Below, piece by piece: positions 25,509-63,617 of a stretch of DNA of 64,000 bases. Within the stretch, counting starts at the first letter, position 1, and every line of letters starts with the position of its first letter. The notes below the pieces were generated by a model, which searched no databases, was not told where the DNA came from, and worked only from the letters and a program-made list of their open reading frames with translations. The stretch is taken from assembly GCF_002953195.1 (NCBI RefSeq), contig NZ_CP026377.1:3968001-4032000 (forward strand), in the 5' to 3' direction. The position numbers were made by a program, and so were the translations under genes. Origin of the DNA: Mixta gaviniae. GTDB taxonomy: Bacteria; Pseudomonadota; Gammaproteobacteria; Enterobacterales; Enterobacteriaceae.

Positions 25509-27062
25509 ATGTCAGTGAAGAATATGAAAGTCGGTTTTCGACTGGGCGCAGCATTCAGTTTAGTCATCCTGCTGCTGATTATTGTGAGCGCAACAGCAGT
25601 CATTAAAATCAATAACATTAATACCGCCGTAGAAAATATCGTTAACGATCGCTATATCAAAGTCAGGCTGGCGTTTGATGTGCGCGATGGCGTTAACAAC
25701 CAGATTAAATTTCTGCGCGGCATGGTGATCGATACGCCCCGTCCCGAAATGAATCAAAAGCGTTTTGGCCAGCTTGAGCAGGCGACGCAGCAAACCAACG
25801 AAGCGATTGAACAGATCGCCCGACTGCAAACTACCGCCGTCGGCCAGAAAAAAATCCTGGCGGTCAAAGAGGCGGCACAGGGCTTCGCCGCAGCGAGCCA
25901 GCAGCTGCTGACGCTGATCCGCGAGGGCAACGTCGACGCCGCCGCCGACTATGCGCTGCGTAAAATGACGCCGGCGCAAAACGCCTTCCTCGATATCGTG
26001 GTGAAATTTGCCGATTCCCAATCCTCCCAGCTGCAGGGTGAAGGCGCGCACGCGGTGGCGGACGCCACCACCGCCATCAATATCACGCTGATCTTCTCCG
26101 CGCTGGCGATTGTTGCGGCGCTGCTCCTCGGCTACTTCCTGACCCGCTCAATTGTGCAGCCGCTGCGCGCCGCCGTCAGCATTGCGGAAAACGTGGCGGC
26201 CGGCGATCTGCGTACGGTTATTAAGGCCGACTCATCGGATGAAACGGGCCAGCTGATGCAGGCGCTGAAGAAGATGAACGACAATTTGCTGCAAATCGTG
26301 ACCGAAGTGCGCGCCGGCACCGACCTGATCGCGACTGCCTCCAGCGAAATCTCCGCCGGCAATATCGACCTCTCCTCCCGTACCGAACAGCAGGCCAGCT
26401 CGCTGGAAGAGACAGCCTCAGCAATGGAGCAGATGACCTCCACCGTGAAGCAAAACGCCGATAACGCCCGTCAGGCTAATCAACTGGCGGCGCTGGCGTC
26501 AAACGTCGCGGTGCAGAGCGGCAATGCGGTGAAGCAGGTGGTCACGACCATGGAGGCCATCAGCAGCTCATCGCGCAAAATCGTCGATATCATCAGCGTG
26601 ATCGACGGCATCGCCTTCCAGACCAATATTCTGGCGCTGAACGCGGCGGTCGAGGCGGCGCGTGCCGGCGAGCAGGGCCGCGGCTTCGCGGTGGTGGCAT
26701 CTGAAGTGCGCAGCCTGGCCCAGCGCTCCGCTTCCGCCGCCAAAGAGATCGCGCAGCTGATCGAAGATTCGGTGAATAAAGTCGATGAAGGCGGCCGTCA
26801 GGTGGCTAACGCCGGCAGCACCATGAACGAGGTGCTGACCAGCGTGAAAAGCGTGACGGAAATTATGGGCGAGATCTCTATCGCCAGTAGCGAGCAAAGC
26901 ACCGGCATCGATGAGATCAATGCGGCGATCACCCAGATGGACCAGGTGACGCAGCAGAATGCCGCGCTGGTTAATCAGTCTGCGGCAGCGGCGCAGGCGA
27001 TGCAGGAGCAGGCCGCCCAGCTGGCTCAGGCGATGCGGGTATTTAAGGTCAACGCCGTCTGA
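25509..27062 (+). CDS. Methyl-accepting chemotaxis protein
   Basis: This is a transmembrane chemoreceptor of 517 residues. It has TM1 (FSLVILLLIIVSATAVIKI), a periplasmic four-helix-bundle ligand domain (about 35-190, resembling 4HB_MCP), TM2 (LIFSALAIVAALLLGYFLT), a HAMP domain, and the signalling tip (DGIAFQTNILALNAAVEAAR, EQGRGFAVVASEVRSLAQRS). The C-terminus ends KVNAV and lacks the NWETF-type CheR/CheB-docking pentapeptide, so adaptation may need help from other receptors. The ligand is unknown. ATG at 25509 with AAGGA upstream. Confidence 0.93.
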   Translation: MSVKNMKVGFRLGAAFSLVILLLIIVSATAVIKINNINTAVENIVNDRYIKVRLAFDVRDGVNNQIKFLRGMVIDTPRPEMNQKRFGQLEQATQQTNEAIEQIARLQTTAVGQKKILAVKEAAQGFAAASQQLLTLIREGNVDAAADYALRKMTPAQNAFLDIVVKFADSQSSQLQGEGAHAVADATTAINITLIFSALAIVAALLLGYFLTRSIVQPLRAAVSIAENVAAGDLRTVIKADSSDETGQLMQALKKMNDNLLQIVTEVRAGTDLIATASSEISAGNIDLSSRTEQQASSLEETASAMEQMTSTVKQNADNARQANQLAALASNVAVQSGNAVKQVVTTMEAISSSSRKIVDIISVIDGIAFQTNILALNAAVEAARAGEQGRGFAVVASEVRSLAQRSASAAKEIAQLIEDSVNKVDEGGRQVANAGSTMNEVLTSVKSVTEIMGEISIASSEQSTGIDEINAAITQMDQVTQQNAALVNQSAAAAQAMQEQAAQLAQAMRVFKVNAV

Positions 27063-51205: not shown

Positions 51206-52849
51206 TCAGGGGAACAAAATGAACTGACTGTCCTGAGGGATGGTCTTTCTGTATACCCGCCTGCTTTTCACCAGGTAGCCTTTTACCCGTTTGAACCTCC
51301 CGGACTTGTCGGGTGTATCGTAAAGCTGAGCAAAATAAAATCTCCTGTTATCACGACGCTTATGCAGGTTAAGTCGCTCAAAAGAAGCCTGAATGCTTTC
51401 CCGTTGAATAGTCGAACCAGTGGCCTTAAGGTAGTCGAAAAAGATACCGGGGACGGGTAAAAAGACATAGCCGGCAATAACATGGATTTTGTCTGCTTTA
51501 CCATTAAAACTAATATCTCCCCGATTGAGTCCCTCCCGGAGCCAGTCAAAAAACTGTTCTCCTTCCGCTACGTCAGTACCGGAGACTGCTACGGGTACGG
51601 AATCTGATCTTTCATCACATTTGTTAACAATTGCAACCTGAGAATAGTCCGAGTTTCCTTTTGCAGACGGTTCCTTTTCATTTGCGGGGTCTTCTATCTT
51701 TTCAAGGGGTTCTGACGATTGCTGTTCCTCTGCAATCACAACGGACACGCCTGCCTGTACCTCACCTTCATTTTCTGAAGCTTTAGCATCTCCTGACATG
51801 TCGAAAAGAGAAAGGAGAGCATCAGCATCATCTTCAGAGGGCAGAGAGTCAGAGCCAGTACTTTTTTCGATTTCGCTTAAAACACTTTCTGCTTCGTTTT
51901 CTTCACGGCTTTTAACTGGTGAATCACTAAGCTGAGTGGGGTTATCAATACCTGTGGCAAGTGTAAAGATCTCAGGGGAAGATGGATCAGTTGCCCCGCT
52001 CAGAGCTGTTTGTTCAGATAACATATCTGTAGGTAAAACCGTAGCGCCCCCCTCATTTGAAAGGGCTGTATTTACTGGAATTTCACCTGCATAAGAACCT
52101 AAAATTTCCGCAGGTTTCCTCTCCATCAGAGGAGACTCTGTTTTCTCAGCTGCTTGTTTCATCAGGCTTCGGATCAACGGCATTGCCGGATGCTGGTTCC
52201 ATAAGGCCCCGGCAAGATTGCCCAGAGCTTCGGGATTTTCTGCCAGCCAGCCTGTCGCTTCCGCTGGCATAAGTTGTCCGGCTGCCAGCGCTGCAAAAGC
52301 TGAGGAGTTGTCAGCTTCCCGGAAGCGAAATCGATAAGGCGAGTCCGGAACGGTTATTCCCGGAAGCCAGCTTTTACCATCAAGCAGCTCCCCCTCCAGA
52401 GACGCCAGGAGCGGCAAATGCCAGAACAGTGCAGACCAGAAAATGACCGTATTCCACATCACGTTTTGCTCTGCCTGCTCTTCTGGCGCAGCTCCGGGTG
52501 GAAACATGTATCCTTTGGCCAGTCTGACCGCACAGGTTGTGAACTGCAGCGTAAGGTCCCCGAAGCCGTCTGACTGCGACCACCTTCCCTGCTGTGTTGC
52601 CGGCACATTCTGTACCCTGGCCAGTAAGCCATGCAGTGGCGTTATATAAAACCGGTGATAAACATCCGCCGGAAGTGAGCTGTTTTCCCATATTTGTTGC
52701 AGGCAGGTTTTTCTCAACGGGCTACAGCACAGCGTATCGACCGTACGCGGAGCGTGGTAGCCGGCAGGTGTGAAAGCGGATACATGACGTGCTGGTTCCG
52801 GTTCACCTTTTGAAAACAGAAACCTCAGAGTCCTGATTCTGTCGCGCAT
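51206..52849 (-). CDS. MobH-family (TraI_2) conjugative relaxase
   Basis: The product of 547 residues resembles the TraI_2 relaxases of ICEs in the MOB-H group. The N-terminal half contains LCCSPLRKTCLQQIWENS and VYHRFYITPLHGLLARVQN; the TraI_2_C part is seen at the end (FFDWLREGLNRGDISFNG, VFLPVPGIFFDYLKATG, RRVYRKTIPQDSQFILFP). Middle region (about 270-420) is acidic and low-complexity. Start 52849 has AGGAG upstream; an earlier ATG at 52888 is possible. Relaxase next to integrase supports a conjugative element. Confidence 0.85.
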   Translation of the reverse strand: MRDRIRTLRFLFSKGEPEPARHVSAFTPAGYHAPRTVDTLCCSPLRKTCLQQIWENSSLPADVYHRFYITPLHGLLARVQNVPATQQGRWSQSDGFGDLTLQFTTCAVRLAKGYMFPPGAAPEEQAEQNVMWNTVIFWSALFWHLPLLASLEGELLDGKSWLPGITVPDSPYRFRFREADNSSAFAALAAGQLMPAEATGWLAENPEALGNLAGALWNQHPAMPLIRSLMKQAAEKTESPLMERKPAEILGSYAGEIPVNTALSNEGGATVLPTDMLSEQTALSGATDPSSPEIFTLATGIDNPTQLSDSPVKSREENEAESVLSEIEKSTGSDSLPSEDDADALLSLFDMSGDAKASENEGEVQAGVSVVIAEEQQSSEPLEKIEDPANEKEPSAKGNSDYSQVAIVNKCDERSDSVPVAVSGTDVAEGEQFFDWLREGLNRGDISFNGKADKIHVIAGYVFLPVPGIFFDYLKATGSTIQRESIQASFERLNLHKRRDNRRFYFAQLYDTPDKSGRFKRVKGYLVKSRRVYRKTIPQDSQFILFP

Positions 52850-52915
52850 GATTTTCTCCTGGTATAGGGCTGCCCAGTGTTGTGACACTCCCCGCGCTTC
52901 ACCATAAAAAACCAG

Positions 52916-54514: not shown

Positions 54515-54541
54515 ATAAAAAACGCTCCCGGGCGGGAGCGT
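54515..54541 (-). terminator. Intrinsic terminator after the methylase-like gene
   Basis: Stem ACGCTCCCG / CGGGAGCGT followed on the minus strand by TTTTTATTTC, 10 bp past the stop at 54552. The same stem recurs after pcoE at 62898-62917. Confidence 0.88.
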
Positions 54542-55235: not shown

Positions 55236-55296
55236 GCGTCTTCTCCATAAAAAAAGGGAACACGCACCCTGACCAGGGGACGTGTCCCCTGAGGGT
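55236..55296 (-). promoter_or_regulatory. Structured leader element E7 before the methylase-like gene
   Basis: Strand order a-b-a'-b' on the minus strand: a ACCCT (55292-55296) pairs with a' AGGGT (55266-55270); b GGGGACACG (55281-55289) pairs with b' CGTGTTCCC (55256-55264, one G-U). A U7 run and GGAG follow. b' plus its flank (TGCGT) also matches ACGCA at the start codon. A competing local hairpin CAGGGGA / TCCCCTG exists in the plus-strand sequence. Confidence 0.65.
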
Positions 55297-55343
55297 AAAA
55301 AGCCACGGCATTGCCGTGGCTGGGTTAACGGAGGAACAGGCTT

Positions 55344-56276
55344 TTACCCCCGGACCTCACGATAAGATGCTGCTTCCTGAGTCGATAACGCCGGCTCATC
55401 GCTGACGAGATAAAGCACCTGACCGGGCTGAGACGCGCCGGCCGCACCTTTGTGTCCGTCGACATGTTCGCCGCCGTCATAGCAGTCGTAACCGCTGAGC
55501 CCGCTCACGGGCTCGCTGTAGCTGTGACGCACCTCGCAGTCAAATACCGCAGAAATTTCCCCGACAACCTCACCTGACGGCGGAAGCCAGGGCGTATCCA
55601 TCTGCAGCGTAAGACTGTTTGGCGAATGCCGCTGCCAGTTGACATTGTGCCCGGCAGGCCACTCCATGCCGTACTGCCGGCAGTAGAGGCTGGTTGTGGT
55701 CGATACGCCTGACATCAGCCCTCCGGAACCGTTCAGCTCTGCTGCCAGCCGCGTAGGTATGACGGCCAGCATATCGCAGGGCTGGGAGCGTTCAGGATAC
55801 TGGCTGAGCCGCTCCCAGGCAGTTGCGGCATCAGACTCATCGCCGGCGCTGACCAGACCAAACCAGTCGGTGTATTGCCTGGCAATCAGCTCCGCCATAA
55901 CCTCACGTGCCGGGTCGGGAATATTCTCCCATTTCAGCGCGCCCAGACCTGACTGGTGATACAGCCGGTCAATGGCCCGGATGGTTTCCGCATCGAGGAT
56001 GGCATCCTTCAGCAGGAGCGCCAGCCAGCTTTCAAACGCCTGATTGGCCGCAGTGGAAAGCCCTGTGCCTGCACGGACCAGCCCCTGACAGGGCGGATAC
56101 GACGTTGTGCGCACCGGCTTGAGTATCCCCGCCGCGCCAGCCAGAAAAAGCTGTATGCTCTGCTGCACTGCGTGGCGGTGACGCGGTACGTCAGTTCCGT
56201 TTATCCACTGCAGCATGACATCAATGCAGACGGATTTACCGGTGATTTCCAGGCGGTTATGACACCATTCGGACAT
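55344..56276 (-). CDS. DUF1281/Api92-like plasmid protein
   Basis: A 310-residue protein, starting MSEWCHNRLEITGKSVCIDV at 56276 after GAGGAG. It resembles the DUF1281 (YubP, Api92-like) proteins on conjugative plasmids and ICEs: N-terminal WCHNRLEITG, central PPC-like SYPPCQGLVRAGTGLS and C-terminal WPAGHNVNWQRHSPNSL with ferredoxin-like fold features (SALFDCEVRHSYSEPVSG). Function unknown; possibly linked to DNA transfer or host takeover by context. Confidence 0.8.
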   Translation of the reverse strand: MSEWCHNRLEITGKSVCIDVMLQWINGTDVPRHRHAVQQSIQLFLAGAAGILKPVRTTSYPPCQGLVRAGTGLSTAANQAFESWLALLLKDAILDAETIRAIDRLYHQSGLGALKWENIPDPAREVMAELIARQYTDWFGLVSAGDESDAATAWERLSQYPERSQPCDMLAVIPTRLAAELNGSGGLMSGVSTTTSLYCRQYGMEWPAGHNVNWQRHSPNSLTLQMDTPWLPPSGEVVGEISAVFDCEVRHSYSEPVSGLSGYDCYDGGEHVDGHKGAAGASQPGQVLYLVSDEPALSTQEAASYREVRG

Positions 56277-56341
56277 AGTGAATACTCCTCTTTCATAAAA
56301 AAAAGAGGACACAGCCCCGTGAGGAGCGGTGTCCTCACGGG
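56277..56341 (-). promoter_or_regulatory. Structured leader element E5 before the DUF1281 gene
   Basis: Minus-strand order: a CCCGT (56337-56341), b GAGGACAC (56329-56336), a' ACGGG (56316-56320), b' GTGTCCTC (56305-56312), then U8. b' plus U's (TCCTCTTT) is fully complementary over 8 bp to AAAGAGGA, which is the Shine-Dalgarno region of the following gene. b and SD therefore compete for b'. Confidence 0.75.
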
Positions 56342-56381
56342 AGGGCGACAGTTACGGAATAACCGCCACCGGATAAGTTAA

Positions 56382-57368
56382 TTACGCCGCCACAGCCTGA
56401 CTTTCAGGCAGTGCCAGTAGATATTCCGACGCTTCCCGGGCATGCCGGCAGGCGCGGAACAGGGCCTTTTTGTCAGATTTCAGCACCTTCAGCCAGTGGT
56501 CCACATAGCTGTCGTGCTGAACCTCACCGAATACCCCGAGTTGGGCACACAAAAACGCACTGCCCATTTCGGCGATGAGCTCCTCAAAGGCATACACCGG
56601 GTCCCCGAACTTGCGGGATGAGGAGGTTATCCCCTCCCGGTTAAGTCGCTTCGCATGACCGGTACTGTGTACCAGTTCATGCAGCAGCGTGGACCAGCAG
56701 TCCGCCTCCGTAAAAAACTGCTCAGCCACCGGCATCACAATTTCATCCGTCAGCGGACGGTAATAAGCCCGGTTCTGAGGCAGCATCCGGTGTTTAACCC
56801 CTGTGGCGTTAAACATCCGGATCACCCTGTTCATCACGTCCGGGCTGAGTATGCCGTCCTCATCCACCGTCGGCGGTTGCTCAGGTGAAGCCGCAACCTC
56901 TGCCGGCAACCCCTCACACTGCTCAGCGTTGAACAGCTGCAGGGGTTTAAGCATCGGCACGGTTTCCATCAGCGGTTTACCGTCACTGTCATAAAGGCGG
57001 TTGCCTTCGCGATCCTCCGCCTGCTTCGTCCAGTCCTTATAAACCACCGCCAGGGTGGCTTTCTCACCCTTACGCACCTGCCCGCCAGCCTGCTGCGCCT
57101 GCCGGTAAGTCATCCAGCGGTTATTGCGAAAACCCTGCTCTTCCGCTGACATCCAGAGAAGCAGGACATTCACGCCGCTGTAGTGACGTCCGGTTGTGGC
57201 ATTTAGGGGCAGACCGGCCAGACCGATGCCGGCAGCCGCGCGCCACGGCTTACGCCAGGGCGCGACGCCGTTTTCCAGAGCGACAACAATGCGGTCGGTG
57301 ATCTGACGATAAAGGTCAGTATGTTTTGCCGGACGGCGGGCCGCCTTGTGTGAAGTCGTTTTTTTCAT
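56382..57368 (-). CDS. ArdC-like antirestriction protein
   Basis: A 328-residue protein with the N-terminal ssDNA-binding region typical of ArdC/TraC-type (DLYRQITDRIVVALENGVAP, WRKPW, GVNVLLLWMSAEEQGF, MTYRQAQQAGGQVRKGEK) and a C-terminal zincin-like domain with HELVHSTGHAKRL. ArdC proteins shield entering plasmid DNA from restriction. Ends ALPESQAVAA. Confidence 0.9.
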   Translation of the reverse strand: MKKTTSHKAARRPAKHTDLYRQITDRIVVALENGVAPWRKPWRAAAGIGLAGLPLNATTGRHYSGVNVLLLWMSAEEQGFRNNRWMTYRQAQQAGGQVRKGEKATLAVVYKDWTKQAEDREGNRLYDSDGKPLMETVPMLKPLQLFNAEQCEGLPAEVAASPEQPPTVDEDGILSPDVMNRVIRMFNATGVKHRMLPQNRAYYRPLTDEIVMPVAEQFFTEADCWSTLLHELVHSTGHAKRLNREGITSSSRKFGDPVYAFEELIAEMGSAFLCAQLGVFGEVQHDSYVDHWLKVLKSDKKALFRACRHAREASEYLLALPESQAVAA

Positions 57369-57434
57369 GAGATATACCTTTAATCAGAGGCATACCCCTG
57401 CGCCGGCGGGCGCAGAGATACGCCCGTCGACGGG
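57369..57434 (-). promoter_or_regulatory. Structured leader element E6 before ardC (weaker)
   Basis: b GGCGTATC (57417-57424) can pair with b' GGTATGCC (57389-57396) using two G-U pairs; a/a' pairing lies within CGTCGACGG (57425-57433) and CCGCCGGCG, with one mismatch. A local hairpin CTGCGC / GCGCAG also exists. No clear U-run and no good b'-SD pairing, so this copy is weaker. Confidence 0.4.
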
Positions 57435-57449
57435 AAATTCAGAAGTCAG

Positions 57450-57797
57450 TTACCATGCGGCATAAAACCACAGGTATTCATGTTCAAAGTCAAAATCACT
57501 GAGCAGGCTTTCCAGCCTGTCACGCAGGGTGAAAACGTACTGCAGCCGGCGCTGAAGAAGCTGATTATCCTCATTCCCCTCTGTAAATGTCGCAATCGCA
57601 CAGTCCAGCCTCTCTTTCAGTTGCTGAATATGCTCGCGTGACAGTTCCAGACAGGTCGCGTTTTCCACCTCACCGACATGCTTATCCACCCAGGTAATCA
57701 GTGAAAAATCGCGGCTCAGTTCATACACCGGATGATACGGTGCCGGTACTGCGACGATCTGCCTGTGCTGGCTGTAGAGAAAAATATCCAGTCCCAT
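57450..57797 (-). CDS. Unrecognised 115-residue island protein
   Basis: I do not recognise this protein. It begins MGLDIFLYSQHRQIVAVPAP, has a central helical stretch (LSREHIQQLKERLDCAIATF, QLLQRRLQYVFTLRDRLESL) and ends EHEYLWFYAAW. The MGLDIFLYS start with Tyr/His is typical of small conserved proteins on plasmids. RBS AAGGAGG. Preceded by leader element E8. Confidence 0.7.
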   Translation of the reverse strand: MGLDIFLYSQHRQIVAVPAPYHPVYELSRDFSLITWVDKHVGEVENATCLELSREHIQQLKERLDCAIATFTEGNEDNQLLQRRLQYVFTLRDRLESLLSDFDFEHEYLWFYAAW

Positions 57798-57858
57798 ACG
57801 GGCCTCCTTCGGTTCAGAAAGAGGCAGGAACCTTTCCGGCAGGAAAAGTCCCTGCCGG
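57798..57858 (-). promoter_or_regulatory. Structured leader element E8 before the 115-residue gene (partial)
   Basis: a CCGGCAGG (57851-57858) pairs over 8 bp with a' CCTGCCGG (57836-57843). b/b' pairing is imperfect. Downstream GCCTCTTT can pair with the Shine-Dalgarno region AAGGAGGC (one G-U). No U-run. It keeps the a/a' and SD-sequestering parts but has a weak b/b' stem. Confidence 0.45.
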
Positions 57859-57864
57859 GGTGAG

Positions 57865-58467
57865 TTAACGTCCGGTTATTCGCAGCGCCCCCTGCGGGGT
57901 CACCTGCGATAACCTGGCCTGCAGCCTGCCACAGGCGTTCAGAAAGGTTTGATGATCTTCAGGCTTCGCCCGCTTACAACTGATGAAGGCCGCCTGCTTT
58001 AGCAGACGCACGGCGTTTTCACGCCAGCGGCAGAGTTCATCAGGCCCGACACAGGCATTGAAGTGACAGACTGCACTCGCCAGAAGCTGATCGGCTTTCT
58101 GGCGGTACTGCGCGACTTTCACCCGGTCAGTCGCTGCGGTGAGCACCTGTATCTGTGTGTCGGTAATCAGGATCCTCAGGTCCGTCCTGCCGGACAGTAC
58201 AGAGGTGGCTACCGCGTCGCTTATCGACAGTGATTCAATGAAATCATCGCCGCCGGCAAGCAGGCGTGCCGTGTCGTACCAGTCCTCATTTTTCTGAGGG
58301 TGACACCCTGTGGCATACGCAATACGCGGCACCGGATCGTTGCCCTGCCAGGCACCGGTGGCCGGCATAAGATAAACACCCTCATCCTTTGCCAGGTGAA
58401 GCTGACCTCCCTGCATGCGGGCGGCCAGCAGGACGTTCGTCAGGTCTTTGTTGTCGAAAAAAAGCAT
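57865..58467 (-). CDS. DUF3085-like island protein
   Basis: The 200-residue product has the pattern LHLAKDEGVYLMPATGAWQ, YATGCHPQKNEDWYDTARLL and AGGDDFIESL, which resembles the DUF3085 family seen on plasmids and ICEs. The C-terminal half is helical with Cys residues (CHFNACVGPDELCRW, FISCKRAKPEDHQTF). Function unknown. SD AAAGGAGAG, with leader element E4 directly upstream. Confidence 0.7.
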   Translation of the reverse strand: MLFFDNKDLTNVLLAARMQGGQLHLAKDEGVYLMPATGAWQGNDPVPRIAYATGCHPQKNEDWYDTARLLAGGDDFIESLSISDAVATSVLSGRTDLRILITDTQIQVLTAATDRVKVAQYRQKADQLLASAVCHFNACVGPDELCRWRENAVRLLKQAAFISCKRAKPEDHQTFLNACGRLQARLSQVTPQGALRITGR

Positions 58468-58526
58468 GGGGCTCTCCTTTAAAAACGGGAGAGCCGCCCC
58501 GTCCGGAGTGATCTCTCCCGACGGGG
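58468..58526 (-). promoter_or_regulatory. Structured leader element E4 before the DUF3085-like gene
   Basis: The clearest copy. a CCCCGTC (58520-58526), b GGGAGAG (58513-58519), a' GACGGGG (58497-58503), b' CTCTCCC (58487-58493), then GTTTTT. All 7+7 pairs are Watson-Crick. GGCTCTCC (b' with its flank) is also fully complementary over 8 bp to GGAGAGCC, the Shine-Dalgarno region just before the ATG. Confidence 0.82.
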
Positions 58527-58542
58527 TTAAAGTCAGTACTGT

Positions 58543-59190
58543 TTACAGCGCGTCAGTTTTTTCCGCGACCCGCTTCAGTTCATACAGCTGAAATTCAGCC
58601 TCCGTAAACGCATTCCAGTCGTCGTTGCTCAGCACACGCTCACCACCGCAGAGCAGCTGCAGCAGCAGGGAATCAAACGCGTCACCACGCACCGGCGTTT
58701 TCAGTACCGGCTGAGGCGCGGTCAGCGTCGGCTGCTCAGGCAGGCCGAGATGTCGCTCAATCCAGCGTAACGGTAACGCCCAGCTGCGGCCTTCGTCAGA
58801 AGAATGTATCCGAAAGCTGCCCGGACACAGGTTATGCAGCAGGACCATCACAATGCGTGCAAAGAAATCGCAGGGCTGATGCTGAAAATCCAGCTCCTGG
58901 ATACTCAGCGTATTGCGGTTGCGCTCACGCTCAATCGTCATGTTGACCGGCCAGACACTGCCGCCTGTGTCGCCACAAAACGCCATGACATCAGCAACCG
59001 GAAAGAGGTCAGCCGCGCGATTAAGCGACGGCAGATACGTATTCCCCGGACGCAGACGCACCGGCAGTTGCCAGAAAGTTTCTGTGACGGCCAGAACGAA
59101 AGCATGCCAGTGTCGCAACGGAACCGTGCTGACGTGCTCGATGGTGTAGACAACCGACATGGAAGCCGGCGAAGAAAACAGGTTTTTCAT
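58543..59190 (-). CDS. Unrecognised 215-residue island protein
   Basis: I do not recognise this protein. It begins MKNLFSSPASMSVVYTIEHV, has a mixed alpha/beta composition (HWHAFVLAVTETFWQLPVRL, DVMAFCGDTGGSVWPVNMTI, CDFFARIVMVLLHNLCPGSF) and a helical end (LLLQLLCGGERVLSNDDWNA). No membrane segment or signal peptide is apparent. SD GCGGAGG, with element E2 upstream. A second ATG lies at residue 11. Confidence 0.7.
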   Translation of the reverse strand: MKNLFSSPASMSVVYTIEHVSTVPLRHWHAFVLAVTETFWQLPVRLRPGNTYLPSLNRAADLFPVADVMAFCGDTGGSVWPVNMTIERERNRNTLSIQELDFQHQPCDFFARIVMVLLHNLCPGSFRIHSSDEGRSWALPLRWIERHLGLPEQPTLTAPQPVLKTPVRGDAFDSLLLQLLCGGERVLSNDDWNAFTEAEFQLYELKRVAEKTDAL

Positions 59191-59257
59191 CGATAAATCC
59201 TCCGCGAATAAAAAAGGGGGGATTTATCCCCCGGACGGGAGTAAATCCCCGTCAGGG
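59191..59257 (-). promoter_or_regulatory. Structured leader element E2 before the 215-residue gene
   Basis: a CCTGAC (59251-59256), b GGGGATTTA (59242-59250), a' GTCCGG (59231-59236; one mismatch with a), b' TAAATCCCC (59218-59226), then U-rich TTTTTT after two C's. GATAAATCC (b' with its flank) is fully complementary over 9 bp to GGATTTATC, the Shine-Dalgarno region next to the start codon. Confidence 0.75.
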
Positions 59258-59274
59258 TGTGTTCTTTCTGCTGG

Positions 59275-59640
59275 TTACATCCGTTCGAGAGCCGCTATAG
59301 CCCGATCACACCGGGCATCCTGGATACCTTCATCCACGGCCTTCTCCCAGAAGGGCCGGTTAATTTCTTTTCCCAGCTCGTCCAGCGTGAAGAGCAAATT
59401 TTTAGACGTATCAGGCAAAGGCGGAATATCGCCTTCCCCGAGTAAAAAGACAAACCAGCCATAAGCTGTGCCGGTGCCAATGATGGAATCTTCCAGAAAC
59501 GTCAGTTCATTCGGTTCATCCCGGTCCGTATGAAGATCGAGACGCTGGAATGCCCTTATGCTCAGAAGTTCACTCTCAAGCAGGCAAAGCCAGCTGAGCG
59601 TGTCCAGTGGAGTTTTAAGCGTATAAACGTCTGTGTGCAT
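59275..59640 (-). CDS. Unrecognised 121-residue island protein
   Basis: I do not recognise it. From ATG 59640 (GAGGATAT upstream): MHTDVYTLKTPLDTLSWLCL, then ESELLSIRAFQRLDLHTDRD, a hydrophobic patch (AYGWFVFLLGEGDIPPLP) and helical C-terminus (WEKAVDEGIQDARCDRAIAA). The open frame starts at 59706, but that would include the structured leader element E3. Confidence 0.65.
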   Translation of the reverse strand: MHTDVYTLKTPLDTLSWLCLLESELLSIRAFQRLDLHTDRDEPNELTFLEDSIIGTGTAYGWFVFLLGEGDIPPLPDTSKNLLFTLDELGKEINRPFWEKAVDEGIQDARCDRAIAALERM

Positions 59641-59701
59641 GGGTATATCCTCAGGTAAATAACGGGATATTCCCTCCGACGGAGAGATATCCCCGTCAGG
59701 G
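59641..59701 (-). promoter_or_regulatory. Structured leader element E3 before the 121-residue gene
   Basis: a CCCTGAC (59695-59701) pairs with a' GTC-GG-AGGG (59672-59680; 7 bp with a 2-nt bulge); b GGGATAT (59687-59693) pairs with b' ATATCCC (59664-59670), then GTTATTT. ATATCC of b' is also complementary to GGATAT in the Shine-Dalgarno region. Confidence 0.65.
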
Positions 59702-59736
59702 TCCACAACATTTTTTGACCGGCGTTCATCAACCGA

Positions 59737-60110
59737 TCAGTTCAGTGCATATGAATCAGATTGCTCCTGATACACATATTCAGGATTAAAGCGCAGGCTT
59801 TTCAACGCAGCTACCGACAGTGGATCTACGGAATTTATGCCCGAAACGGCCACGCCATCCAGTATGTCGCCAGCCTCCACCCGGGGAGAATATCCGTAAT
59901 ACTGACACCATACACAGAGTTCGGGGTCAGCCGGATCACAATCACCGAGCGGTGCGACAAAAACCTGTTCGCCACAGGAGACGTTATCTCTGAGGATTTC
60001 GCCCGGATGAAAACACCACTTACGGGGCCATACTGAGCGGGACATACATCCCGTCGCGTCTCAGACATCGACAGAATACGGAAAGTGACATCGTGCAGTG
60101 CTTCAGTCAT
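59737..60110 (-). pseudogene. Small island gene with a probable one-base frameshift
   Basis: A strong Shine-Dalgarno (GGAGGG) and an ATG at 60110, overlapping the previous stop, open MTEALHDVTFRILSMSETRR DVCPAQYGP. In that frame the sequence then turns unlike a protein. The frame ending at 59737 continues well from the same point: RKWCFHPGEILRDNVSCGEQ, CDPADPELCVWCQYYGYSPR, ending VYQEQSDSYALN. The switch falls at a four-base C run (60024-60027); one more C joins them into about 125 residues. Alternatively the gene starts at 60045 (MSRSVWPRKWCF) and is intact but has a poor ribosome-binding site. Function unknown. Confidence 0.6.
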
Positions 60111-60471
60111 GAGAATGCCCTCCGGAAAGAAAACGGTAGCGCAGGTGTGCCAGATGCTGTGCCTGACGGCAAGCATGGCGGTATGCGTTTCGACGACCTG
60201 TTATTCCCTCAGGAAAGGAAACCGGCAGGCGGTGAAAAACATACTCGGCGCGGTGGCAACCTGTACGAACGGTAAGAAAGACGTTAACGCCCTGGTCTTT
60301 GACAGAAGTGATGTGCGCACGGACGGCATAATTGCCCGAACCGTTGACATACCAGCTGCTGTTGCGATGCAGATAAATGAAAGATTTCAATCTCCGGACA
60401 GCTGCGTCAGCAGACTGCTGAAGCTGAGTAAGGAGATGTTCAGGGAAAACCGCAAAAGAGATGACAGACAT
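60103..60471 (-). CDS. Unrecognised 122-residue island protein, first of the module
   Basis: I do not recognise it. Begins MSVISFAVFPEHLLTQLQQS, then FIYLHRNSSWYVNGSGNYAV, GVNVFLTVRTGCHRAEYVFH, and ends with Arg/His-rich LRYRFLSGGHSHD. It is the first gene after the presumed promoter and leader and overlaps the next start codon (60110) by 8 bp. Confidence 0.65.
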   Translation of the reverse strand: MSVISFAVFPEHLLTQLQQSADAAVRRLKSFIYLHRNSSWYVNGSGNYAVRAHITSVKDQGVNVFLTVRTGCHRAEYVFHRLPVSFPEGITGRRNAYRHACRQAQHLAHLRYRFLSGGHSHD

Positions 60472-60529
60472 GGTGTTTCTCCATAAAAAAAGGAAACACC
60501 TGCCCGACCGGGAAGTGTTTCCCGTCGGG
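60472..60529 (-). promoter_or_regulatory. Structured leader element E1 before the first island gene
   Basis: a CCCGAC (60524-60529), one nt, b GGAAACAC (60515-60522), 6 nt, a' GTCGGG (60503-60508), 3 nt, b' GTGTTTCC (60492-60499), then U7 and GGAG. GGTGTTT (b' with its flank) is also complementary over 7 bp to AAACACC directly before the start codon. H-type pseudoknot geometry is sterically plausible. Confidence 0.78.
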
Positions 60530-60624
60530 GAGTCAGAAAAAACAACATTCTGACTGTCTGATAAGTTGAAATGACCTCAATCACTGTTCAGCGATATCCG
60601 TTTCCAGAGGTTAAACGGATTTAC

Positions 60625-60724
60625 CACCCGAAGGTATCCTCTCTCAGGCTGCGAGGATTTTCCGGTCACCCGAAGGTGTTTCTCTCAGACCGGTGAAACG
60701 TTAGCTGCTAGTCACCCGAAGGCG
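60625..60724 (-). repeat. Three tandem UUCG mini-hairpins in the module leader
   Basis: On the minus strand CTGAGAG, 3-4 nt, then a hairpin of the form YRCC-UUCG-GGYG. Hairpins lie at 60625-60636, 60667-60678 and 60713-60724 (42 and 46 nt apart). The stems differ but pair (one G-U in two copies). They sit between the presumed promoter and element E1, in the untranslated leader. Confidence 0.75.
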
Positions 60725-60782
60725 CTCCTCTCAGACTGCCGGAGCATTAGCTGGTTGCATGTAGCAACAAGTAAGCCTGTCT

Positions 60783-60811
60783 ATTTTCAGAGCAAATAGT
60801 GAACATGTCAA
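60783..60811 (-). promoter_or_regulatory. Possible promoter of the island module
   Basis: On the minus strand a perfect TTGACA (60806-60811), a 17-nt spacer and GAAAAT (60783-60788, 4 of 6 of the -10 consensus). The transcript would start about 300 nt before the first gene and contain the UUCG hairpins and E1. Confidence 0.4.
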
Positions 60812-60913: not shown

Positions 60914-62589
<1,676 letters not shown>

Positions 62590-62967: not shown

Positions 62968-63402
62968 TTAATTCTGGGTGATCTGGCTGCGATGCTTTTC
63001 AGCCTGCTGCTGATGAATAACGGAAGATTGACCATTATTCGCCTTCTCATGCACAACAGCGGCTTTCTCATGCTCGTTCATTTCGGAAAATGATTTTGCT
63101 GTTTCGTTAGAAGCTGCTGGCTTGGATTTCATCATTTTTTTATGCATTTCAGCCATGTCCTGATGGGCAGCAGAATTGCCGTTTTGCATCATTTCATGGG
63201 ACATTGCGGCCTGATCGTGACCGCTCATATCCATCATTTTCATGCTCTCCCCCTGAACTGCACTTTTTTCAGCGGATGATTGCATCTGATGGGCAGGCGC
63301 CTGGGCATTATTTACCTGGTCATGCATGTTCATTGTCTCTGCAGCCCAGGCAGATGAAGCGACAGCCATCATGGCAATAAAGGATACAAGGATCTTTTTC
63401 AT
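62968..63402 (-). CDS. pcoE: PcoE, periplasmic copper-binding protein
   Basis: PcoE is a small Met/His-rich periplasmic protein that binds copper and is related to SilE. The 144-residue product starts MKKILVSFIAMMAVASSAWA (signal peptide) and has repeating HDQ/MxxM/HE motifs (NMHDQVNNAQAPAHQM, SHEMMQNGNSAAHQDMAEMH, MNEHEKAAVVHEKANNGQSS). Start 63402 is chosen over 63435. It follows pcoS on the same strand, as in pcoABCDRSE; it usually has its own promoter. Confidence 0.93.
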   Translation of the reverse strand: MKKILVSFIAMMAVASSAWAAETMNMHDQVNNAQAPAHQMQSSAEKSAVQGESMKMMDMSGHDQAAMSHEMMQNGNSAAHQDMAEMHKKMMKSKPAASNETAKSFSEMNEHEKAAVVHEKANNGQSSVIHQQQAEKHRSQITQN

Positions 63403-63617
63403 GGTTGGGTCTCCGGTGTTTTCATACCCGAACAATCAATGCTTATAACAGAGAAAGCATTTGATCTCAGGGCTGGTTGATCATCATGCTAGGAACCGGG
63501 CGATTGAATTATCACGCTGTCCTGATTTATGGCTGATTATAAAAAACCGCCTCTGTTTATCGCGTGACTGAACGATGACATTTTTGTCACCTTCCGGGTT
63601 TCTCCTGAATAACGGTA

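Follow-up and report, generated by a model that had tools for sequence, protein, structure and literature searches.

Leaders carrying gene-specific copies of the Shine-Dalgarno region in STAXI-headed operons: a candidate co-transcriptional translation switch of integrative conjugative elements

Introduction

What does it mean that eight genes of one module each carry, just before the start codon, a copy of their own ribosome-binding site together with a strand that is complementary to both? The question arises in a stretch of the 4.53-Mb Mixta gaviniae chromosome (NZ_CP026377.1) that spans positions 3,968,001–4,032,000 and is referred to below as the window (64,000 nucleotides, numbered from its first letter). 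Eight minus-strand leaders situated between 55236 and 60529, which belong to genes G1–G7 and G9 of a module of an integrative conjugative element (ICE), contain a strand b' that is complementary to an upstream strand b and also to the Shine-Dalgarno (SD) region of the gene itself. A sequence-only reading had described them as a family of pseudoknots, in the order a-b-a'-b', in which b is a gene-specific mimic of the SD. We refer to the pairings a:a', b:b' and b':SD as H1, H2 and H3 respectively.

Results

The complementarity exceeds that of shuffled leaders

The 75 nt before each start codon were scored jointly for ungapped duplexes b:b', b':SD and a:a'. The eight leaders reach joint scores of -31 to -47, and the stretch before G8, which lies inside the G9 coding sequence, scores -21. 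As 5% of 261 genes of the same chromosome reach -28 the raw score is unspecific, and we rely instead on shuffle p-values and on swap tests. When each 75-nt leader is set against 1000 dinucleotide shuffles, those at least as good as the observed sequence number 8 for G1, 2 for G2, 1 for G3, 17 for G4, 0 for G5, 6 for G6, 5 for G7 and 0 for G9, so that seven of the eight leaders exceed their shuffles at 1% and G4 does so at 2%; the ninth start, G8, is matched by 170 shuffles and has no element. The leaders of G6 and G9 (E6 and E8 of the sequence-only reading) had been called weak, but both are good by this measure and it is G4 that is weak. With the last 22 nt kept fixed the corresponding counts are 1 (G1), 1 (G2), 1 (G3), 20 (G4), 0 (G5), 5 (G6), 1 (G7), 0 (G9) and 199 (G8). 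For the b:b' and b':SD part alone there is a modest excess for G1, G2, G6 and G7 (35–69 of 1000 shuffles as good) and none for G4 (188 of 1000).

To avoid circularity in the choice of b', we also picked it from b:b' and position only. With this SD-blind choice, mean pairing of b' with its own SD is -8.46 across the eight leaders, versus -5.59 with permuted SDs (sd 0.66; best of 2000 permutations -8.06), and the own SD is among the best 10% for just four of the eight. A looser SD-blind pick often caught the H1 arm, and own SDs still fitted better with it (-7.62 versus -5.46); the present pick is restricted to a range of positions. A search of Rfam, at gathering thresholds and down to E<=5, finds no family on the leaders. 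The strands are situated as follows.

55280..55290, minus strand: strand b of the G1 leader (H1 hairpin 55266-55296)
55255..55265, minus strand: strand b' of the G1 leader, then UUUUUU
55236..55243, minus strand: SD-side partner of b' (H3), G1
56329..56338, minus strand: strand b of the G2 (DUF1281) leader (H1 56315-56342)
56303..56312, minus strand: strand b' of the G2 leader, then UUUUUU
56286..56294, minus strand: SD-side partner of b', G2 (9 pairs with 56301-56309, G-U allowed)
57409..57425, minus strand: strand b, extended, of the G3 (ArdC-like) leader (H1 57407-57426; orthologues compared)
57388..57404, minus strand: strand b' of the G3 leader, without a good U-run
57369..57379, minus strand: SD-side partner of b', G3 (orthologues compared)
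57842..57856, minus strand: strand b of the G4 leader (H1 57838-57856), the weakest of the eight
57823..57837, minus strand: strand b' of the G4 leader
57802..57808, minus strand: SD-side partner of b', G4 (7 pairs, weak)
58511..58520, minus strand: strand b of the G5 (DUF3085) leader (H1 58497-58526)
58486..58495, minus strand: strand b' of the G5 leader, then UUUUU
58470..58477, minus strand: SD-side partner of b', G5 (8 of 8)
59242..59250, minus strand: strand b of the G6 leader (H1 59229-59257)
59217..59228, minus strand: strand b' of the G6 leader (b:b' part 59218-59226, then a U-run)
59192..59203, minus strand: SD-side partner of b', G6 (12 pairs, G-U allowed)
59683..59693, minus strand: strand b of the G7 leader (H1 59676-59699)
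59664..59674, minus strand: strand b' of the G7 leader
59641..59650, minus strand: SD-side partner of b', G7
60513..60523, minus strand: strand b of the G9 leader (H1 60503-60529)
60491..60501, minus strand: strand b' of the G9 leader, then UUUUUU
60472..60479, minus strand: SD-side partner of b', G9 (8 of 8)

Leader-bearing operons start with STAXI RNA

The leaders recur in seven named plasmids and in many ICE loci, with the triple complementarity kept and the sequences different. In the seven plasmids, 42 of 53 module genes have a leader that 9 or fewer of 300 shuffles equal, versus 4 of 67 other genes in the same stretches; an IncFII Klebsiella plasmid (L010) has none before its 21 genes. 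A new observation is that the leader-bearing operons start with STAXI RNA (RF01728), which precedes the module both in the window and in each of the seven plasmids; in pSGI4 the distance from it to the first module gene annotated is 603 nt. In the window, two features stand ahead of the module:

60617..60769, minus strand: STAXI RNA, 113 bits versus a gathering score of 40.5
60783..60811, minus strand: sigma70-like promoter match TTGACA-17-GAAAAT (by sequence), ending 13 nt before STAXI

Weinberg et al. described STAXI in 2010 as a tandem pseudoknot with DNA-handling and antirestriction genes in its neighbourhood (PMC2864571). A 46-nt tandem repeat of 1.9 copies at 60665-60753 agrees with the described tandem motif. 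STAXI matches occur in 6 of 295 genomes of the order, in 84 of 392 of the family (76 above the Rfam cut-off) and in 1 of 369 of the class, which is this genome. The 77 STAXI places comprise 74 non-redundant loci. In 50 of these the sigma70-like match with the best score ends 11–15 nt before STAXI, versus 63 of 1480 shuffles, and scores of at least 10 are reached in 22 versus 19 of 1480. Because such a match stands just before it, STAXI is likely to be the 5' end of the operon transcript, and the position of the match predicts the early place in the nascent transcript that an antiterminator RNA would need.

As judged by the detector, the leaders are concentrated in STAXI-headed operons. In 19 STAXI stretches 30 of 103 genes at operon positions 1–12 pass p<=0.02, versus 4 of 297 other genes. 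In 40 further stretches the counts are 64 of 144 at positions 1–4, 23 of 156 at positions 5–12 and 0 of 14 beyond position 12, with 24 of 404 among other genes, at least nine of the 24 being module genes missed by the gap rule. The leaders are not limited to antirestriction genes, as they also precede genes for STY4534-family replication proteins and single-stranded DNA-binding protein (SSB). Elsewhere in the M. gaviniae genome another STAXI-headed operon opens with an STY4534-type gene for replication and one for SSB, each preceded by a leader (p 0.01), and the pilus and transfer genes after them are mostly without one. The same pair at the head of a long transfer operon in L039 (15610 and 15079) has the element, with later genes mostly lacking it, and the replication gene also has it in the relatives L041, L044, L100, L106, L114 and L116.

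Outside the order, 14 of 273 other genomes in the class have ArdC homologues. Four of 56 genes in these stretches pass p<=0.02, of which two are convincing by eye, ArdC in L142 and one gene in L146; a longer piece of the latter, L157 (same class, other order), has three clear leaders of the candidate switch type, at 116, 2420 and 3233. The Rfam STAXI model finds nothing in the ArdC stretches outside the order, and the L157 contig begins just before the first leader gene. DUF3085 occurs in 1 of 273 other genomes of the class, in a stretch with no element.

Gene starts in the relative genomes were picked by a simple script, and the ICE loci are partly close relatives of one another. Two collections are used below: 79 leaders (the eight of the window, 41 of 42 plasmid hits and 30 hits from the 19 STAXI stretches, with L003 hyp1 omitted as its best pairing looked different), and 157 leaders, which add 87 hits from the 40 further stretches, minus duplicates.

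A second RNA, EFASI (RF02957), follows a second STAXI and precedes an integrase-domain gene where annotated, in L002 (16173-16321), L003 (16638-16758), L005–L008, L038, L040, L042 and L045; the company of EFASI, STAXI and integrase has already been described (PMC12370729). Control by RfaH through ops sites was considered and rejected: the window has 6 matches with at most one mismatch versus 5.1 expected, among them an exact match at 25827 and one with a mismatch, on the other strand, at 54531. The NusG-family genes of this genome number two, and they lie more than 170 kb from the last STAXI.

b' matches its own SD and covaries with it

The SD-blind choice of b' was extended to 84 non-redundant genes at positions 1–4 of STAXI operons, unselected for leaders; pairing with the own SD is -5.20 versus -3.61 for permuted SDs (sd 0.21). 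A background of 123 leaders from the same chromosome has no own-SD preference (-3.62 versus -3.78).

Orthologues provide further insight. In a swap test, SDs were exchanged among the non-redundant members of the largest clusters in 5000 permutations; of these clusters, the first was split in two by hand and two long proteins were left in the N6-methyltransferase (N6-MTase) group. Permutations as good as the own arrangement number 0 for ArdC (11 of 16 members) and for N6-MTase (12 of 16), 7 for the G9 family (12 of 22), 8 for DUF3085 (8 of 13), 65 for DUF1281 (8 of 10) and 135 for the G6 family (6 of 8). Exchanged SDs fit worse than the own ones in six of seven families.

The ArdC leaders allow the three strands to be followed column by column. 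Among 13 orthologues, 97.6% of cells are paired in H2 and 93.4% in H3. Across all 16, H2 is paired in 91.1% of cells, with two-sided change at 6 of 10 pairs and a covariation of 0.389, and H3 in 87.5%, with two-sided change at 6 of 7 pairs and a covariation of 0.468; neither covariation is reached by any of 500 shuffles. Sliding the partner by 1–3 columns lowers pairing to 23–68%, a control that the structure is favoured in, having been set by hand from two members. The same columns of b' (49, 50 and 51) show two-sided changes both with b and with the SD.

These comparisons reveal what is expected of a switch that hides the SD, namely an anti-SD strand fitted to the SD of its own gene and covarying with that SD, with one family in seven failing the swap test. 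The notions that pairing is kept as sequences diverge, as seen in the plasmid and ICE relatives, and that b is a gene-specific copy of the SD with b' common to both, have held up, and by sequence comparison the original observation is confirmed and is stronger than first stated.

H1 and H2 compete for b

The order a-b-a'-b' is real. However, the 5–10-nt gap that had been placed between b and a' usually holds the complement of the 5' half of b, such that a:a' extends into b and H1 is one hairpin (for example 60503-60529 in G9). At least 40% of b is paired within the H1 domain in 124 of 157 leaders; since H1 takes these bases, H1 and H2 compete, whereas H1 and H3 are compatible. The two stems of an H-type pseudoknot would have to stand together, and as a general structure the pseudoknot is not borne out. 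Mean stem energies are nearly equal (H1 -15.2 and H2 -14.5 kcal/mol, 157 leaders).

We followed the predicted folds with a length walk, Boltzmann sampling by exposed RNA length, which describes equilibrium and not kinetics. Over the 157 leaders H1 is at 0.89 before b' is exposed, H2 reaches 0.59 once b' is out and 0.65 once the U-tract is out, and with the start codon out H1 stands at 0.80 and H3 at 0.83. For 83 background leaders with a fair score, H2 and H3 are each 0.31. H3 exceeds 0.5 at the end in seven of the eight window leaders (not G4) and in 135 of 157 overall.

Runs of U commonly follow b'. At positions 1–6 after b', U is found in 65–78% of the 79 leaders versus 28% overall; at -26 to -15 the share of U is 48% versus 25% in own-genome genes. 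Sites that are terminator-like by sequence score (stem <= -13) precede interior genes in 60 of 121 cases in STAXI operons, versus 25 of 97 other pairs in the same loci and 10 of 60 own-genome pairs. In 99 non-redundant leaders no anchored position exceeds 1 bit (best 0.93), so neither an aptamer nor a protein motif is seen; together with the Rfam result, this means that the conserved aptamer core of a metabolite riboswitch is not found there.

At the level of sequence and comparison, five things are demonstrated: that b, b' and SD are complementary in three ways, that this is specific to each gene, that two-sided changes maintain it, that it is concentrated in STAXI-headed operons, and that H1 overlaps H2.

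The module and its surroundings

The order of genes on the minus strand is G9, G8 (broken), G7, G6, G5, G4, G3, G2 and G1, with starts at 60471 (G9), 59640 (G7), 59190 (G6), 58467 (G5), 57797 (G4), 57368 (G3), 56276 (G2) and 55235 (G1). Pfam domains are found in four of the nine, G5 being of the DUF3085 type, G3 ArdC-like, G2 DUF1281 and G1 N6-methylase-like; NCBIfam gives weak methylase matches in G1 only, and PADLOC weak type I methylase matches, again in G1 only. A frame change breaks G8 (59737-60110, minus strand) in the window; the L001 homologue has an intact frame and is 124 residues long. Between G2 and the G1 leader, a perfect 8-bp hairpin with a U-run can be seen by eye at 55297-55320 (minus strand); as it resembles a further terminator, G1 may need read-through or a promoter of its own.

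A relaxase gene of the PFGI-1 class lies nearby (51206-52888, TIGR03760). Citrobacter pRHBSTW-00903_3 (95.5% identity), Salmonella pSGI4 and a Klebsiella michiganensis plasmid are the best relatives at the DNA level, followed by Pantoea, Erwinia and Serratia plasmids. On the other side of STAXI are an IS5-family transposase gene (61061-62041) and, near it, a gene for a SilE-like silver-binding protein (62968-63435, minus strand; 154 bits, curated cut-off 200).

Discussion

A co-transcriptional switch

We propose, and regard as moderately probable, that each leader is a co-transcriptional translation switch, open early and then locked, with a terminator-like intermediate, in which b' is shared by b and the gene's own SD. 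In the folding model the short RNA would fold first into H1 (a:a' and part of b), the longer RNA into H2, often with a U-run and terminator-like, and the finished leader into H1 and H3 with the SD hidden; both this order of states and the final hidden SD are predictions of the model. With such an order ribosomes would find the SD accessible for a short time, after which it would be locked. H2 would double as a conditional terminator and as the SD-free state, so that protein would be made mainly by ribosomes loading on fresh RNA, in a short burst that would suit genes needed at transfer, and polymerases leaking in from outside would either be stopped at H2 or make locked mRNA. The two roles that the sequence-only reading had offered as alternatives, b:b' as a terminator with its U-run and b' as the strand that hides the SD, fit in the model as successive states of one RNA.

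A number of results weigh against this proposal. The predicted succession is incomplete in the window: with the U-tract out, H2 exceeds 0.5 in only five of the eight leaders (not G5, G6 or G7; 103 of 157 overall), and the relatives L008_DUF1281, L039_15079, L045_11472 and L052_4277 end in H2. The length walk itself is a matter of equilibrium, and the 157 leaders were chosen by a score that includes the SD. At least five U in the 10 nt after b' are found in just 95 of 157 leaders, and in seven of the eight of the window (exactly five in G4, G5 and G7), G3 having three. Many genes of STAXI operons have no such leader. The STY4534-type family (9 of 14 members) fails the swap test, with 754 of 5000 permutations as good, and in ArdC the H3 pair-type count is not above shuffles (449 of 500). 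Lastly, a slight preference for the own SD (-3.48 versus -2.91, sd 0.17) is also seen among 120 genes that lie outside STAXI operons; missed module genes may be a source of it, albeit not a full explanation.

A role for STAXI

The position of STAXI at the operon head, the terminator-like sites downstream and the parallel with the Bacillus plasmid pLS20, where the conAn antitermination system stands at the start of a conjugation operon with over 20 terminators (PMC8955417), suggest by analogy that STAXI may act as an antiterminator RNA in operons that hold many such terminators. Tentatively, control of enterobacterial ICEs could have two parts, in which STAXI equips the polymerase to pass terminators and the downstream b:b' switches lock themselves, so that only STAXI promoters give protein. 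The b:b' hairpin would then be a terminator for the unequipped polymerase as well as the state that keeps its own SD open, and the burst of protein would come from STAXI promoters only, after which the RNA would lock itself.

Other explanations

The main rival to a self-acting switch is a factor acting in trans, that is, a classical regulated switch in which an ICE or host protein, a small RNA or a metabolite binds H1 or H2 of all leaders and sets the SD open or locked. The near-equal energies of H1 and H2 mean that a binder could tip the balance, and a single signal for the whole module would be attractive. We consider it doubtful nonetheless, as there is no conserved core for a common ligand in the anchored leaders, where the better positions are SD-like, anti-SD-like or part of the U-tract, and no Rfam family lies on them.

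An H-type pseudoknot, with a:a' and b:b' standing together and the SD freed, is unlikely. It draws on the kept order a-b-a'-b' and may be compared with the pseudoknot control of repA in IncM plasmids (PMC8125031); strand exchange might also begin from the H1 loop, which is able to contact b'. The bases that H1 takes from b argue against it, and by eye the long H1 stem of L006_ArdC runs into b.

Plain intrinsic terminators between genes, whose 3' arm resembles an anti-SD by chance, are also improbable, notwithstanding the terminator-like appearance of H2 with its U-run and the fact that terminator arms are pyrimidine-rich and SDs purine-rich. Chance resemblance does not predict that the own SD is matched better than others, nor that b, b' and SD change together among orthologues.

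Folding of the repeats as single-stranded DNA in transfer is highly improbable: the genes do sit in a conjugative element and this was considered for STAXI by Weinberg et al. (PMC2864571), but the fixed site before start codons and the SD pairing point to RNA, the same work prefers RNA for STAXI owing to its UUCG loops, and PCR has detected STAXI in RNA form in the vesicles of one E. coli strain (PMC12370729). Coupling of translation to the preceding gene is rejected as a general explanation, because 23 of 37 operon-opening genes also have the element and stop-to-H1 distances in the window are 8–47 nt (seven leaders).

Comparison with known systems

If the switch is as we propose, it would amount to a control module that can be used again and again, in which no ligand site is recognisable and each gene has a private copy of its ribosome site. 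Orthologues retain this design although their sequences differ widely, which makes it open to testing by a simple exchange of strands. If the two-part scheme also holds, STAXI, a family known from 2010, would gain a function; in the open-licence PMC literature, as far as its available extracts go, we found no description of the leaders or of what STAXI does. Both would help to explain how antirestriction and transfer genes are kept quiet outside a short period in ICE-like elements, for which there are records from Salmonella, Klebsiella, Citrobacter, Serratia and Pantoea.

Terminator/antiterminator attenuators and the expression platforms of riboswitches use competing hairpins, a U-run and SD hiding, as the leaders appear to do. 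The leaders differ in that no aptamer core was found, in that the terminator-like stem and the SD lock share b', and in their repetition before many genes of an operon. The maturation gene leader of the RNA phage MS2 resembles the proposed switch in its timing, as a transient structure permits translation before the stable fold forms (PMC6733600); that is one gene of an RNA genome, whereas here there is a DNA-encoded family in which every gene has a leader of its own, containing a gene-specific SD copy, and the transient hairpin is often followed by a U-run. In the hok and AapA3 toxin mRNAs successive co-transcriptional folds likewise decide access to the SD, but there the metastable hairpins formed during transcription keep translation off or guide the inert fold (PMC6733600), and the transient hairpin of the ICE leaders would leave the SD open.

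With STAXI the leaders have in common the Enterobacteriaceae, the neighbourhood of antirestriction, SSB and integrase genes and the same operons (PMC2864571, PMC12370729), although STAXI, a tandem pseudoknot, lies close to the transcript's 5' end and the leaders are separate downstream elements without an Rfam family. As a candidate processive antiterminator RNA of the put, EAR and conAn2 kind, STAXI would resemble conAn, which heads a long conjugation operon with many internal terminators; conAn has a protein as well as an RNA part and belongs to Bacillus (PMC8955417), and for STAXI such a role is suggested by its position and company alone.

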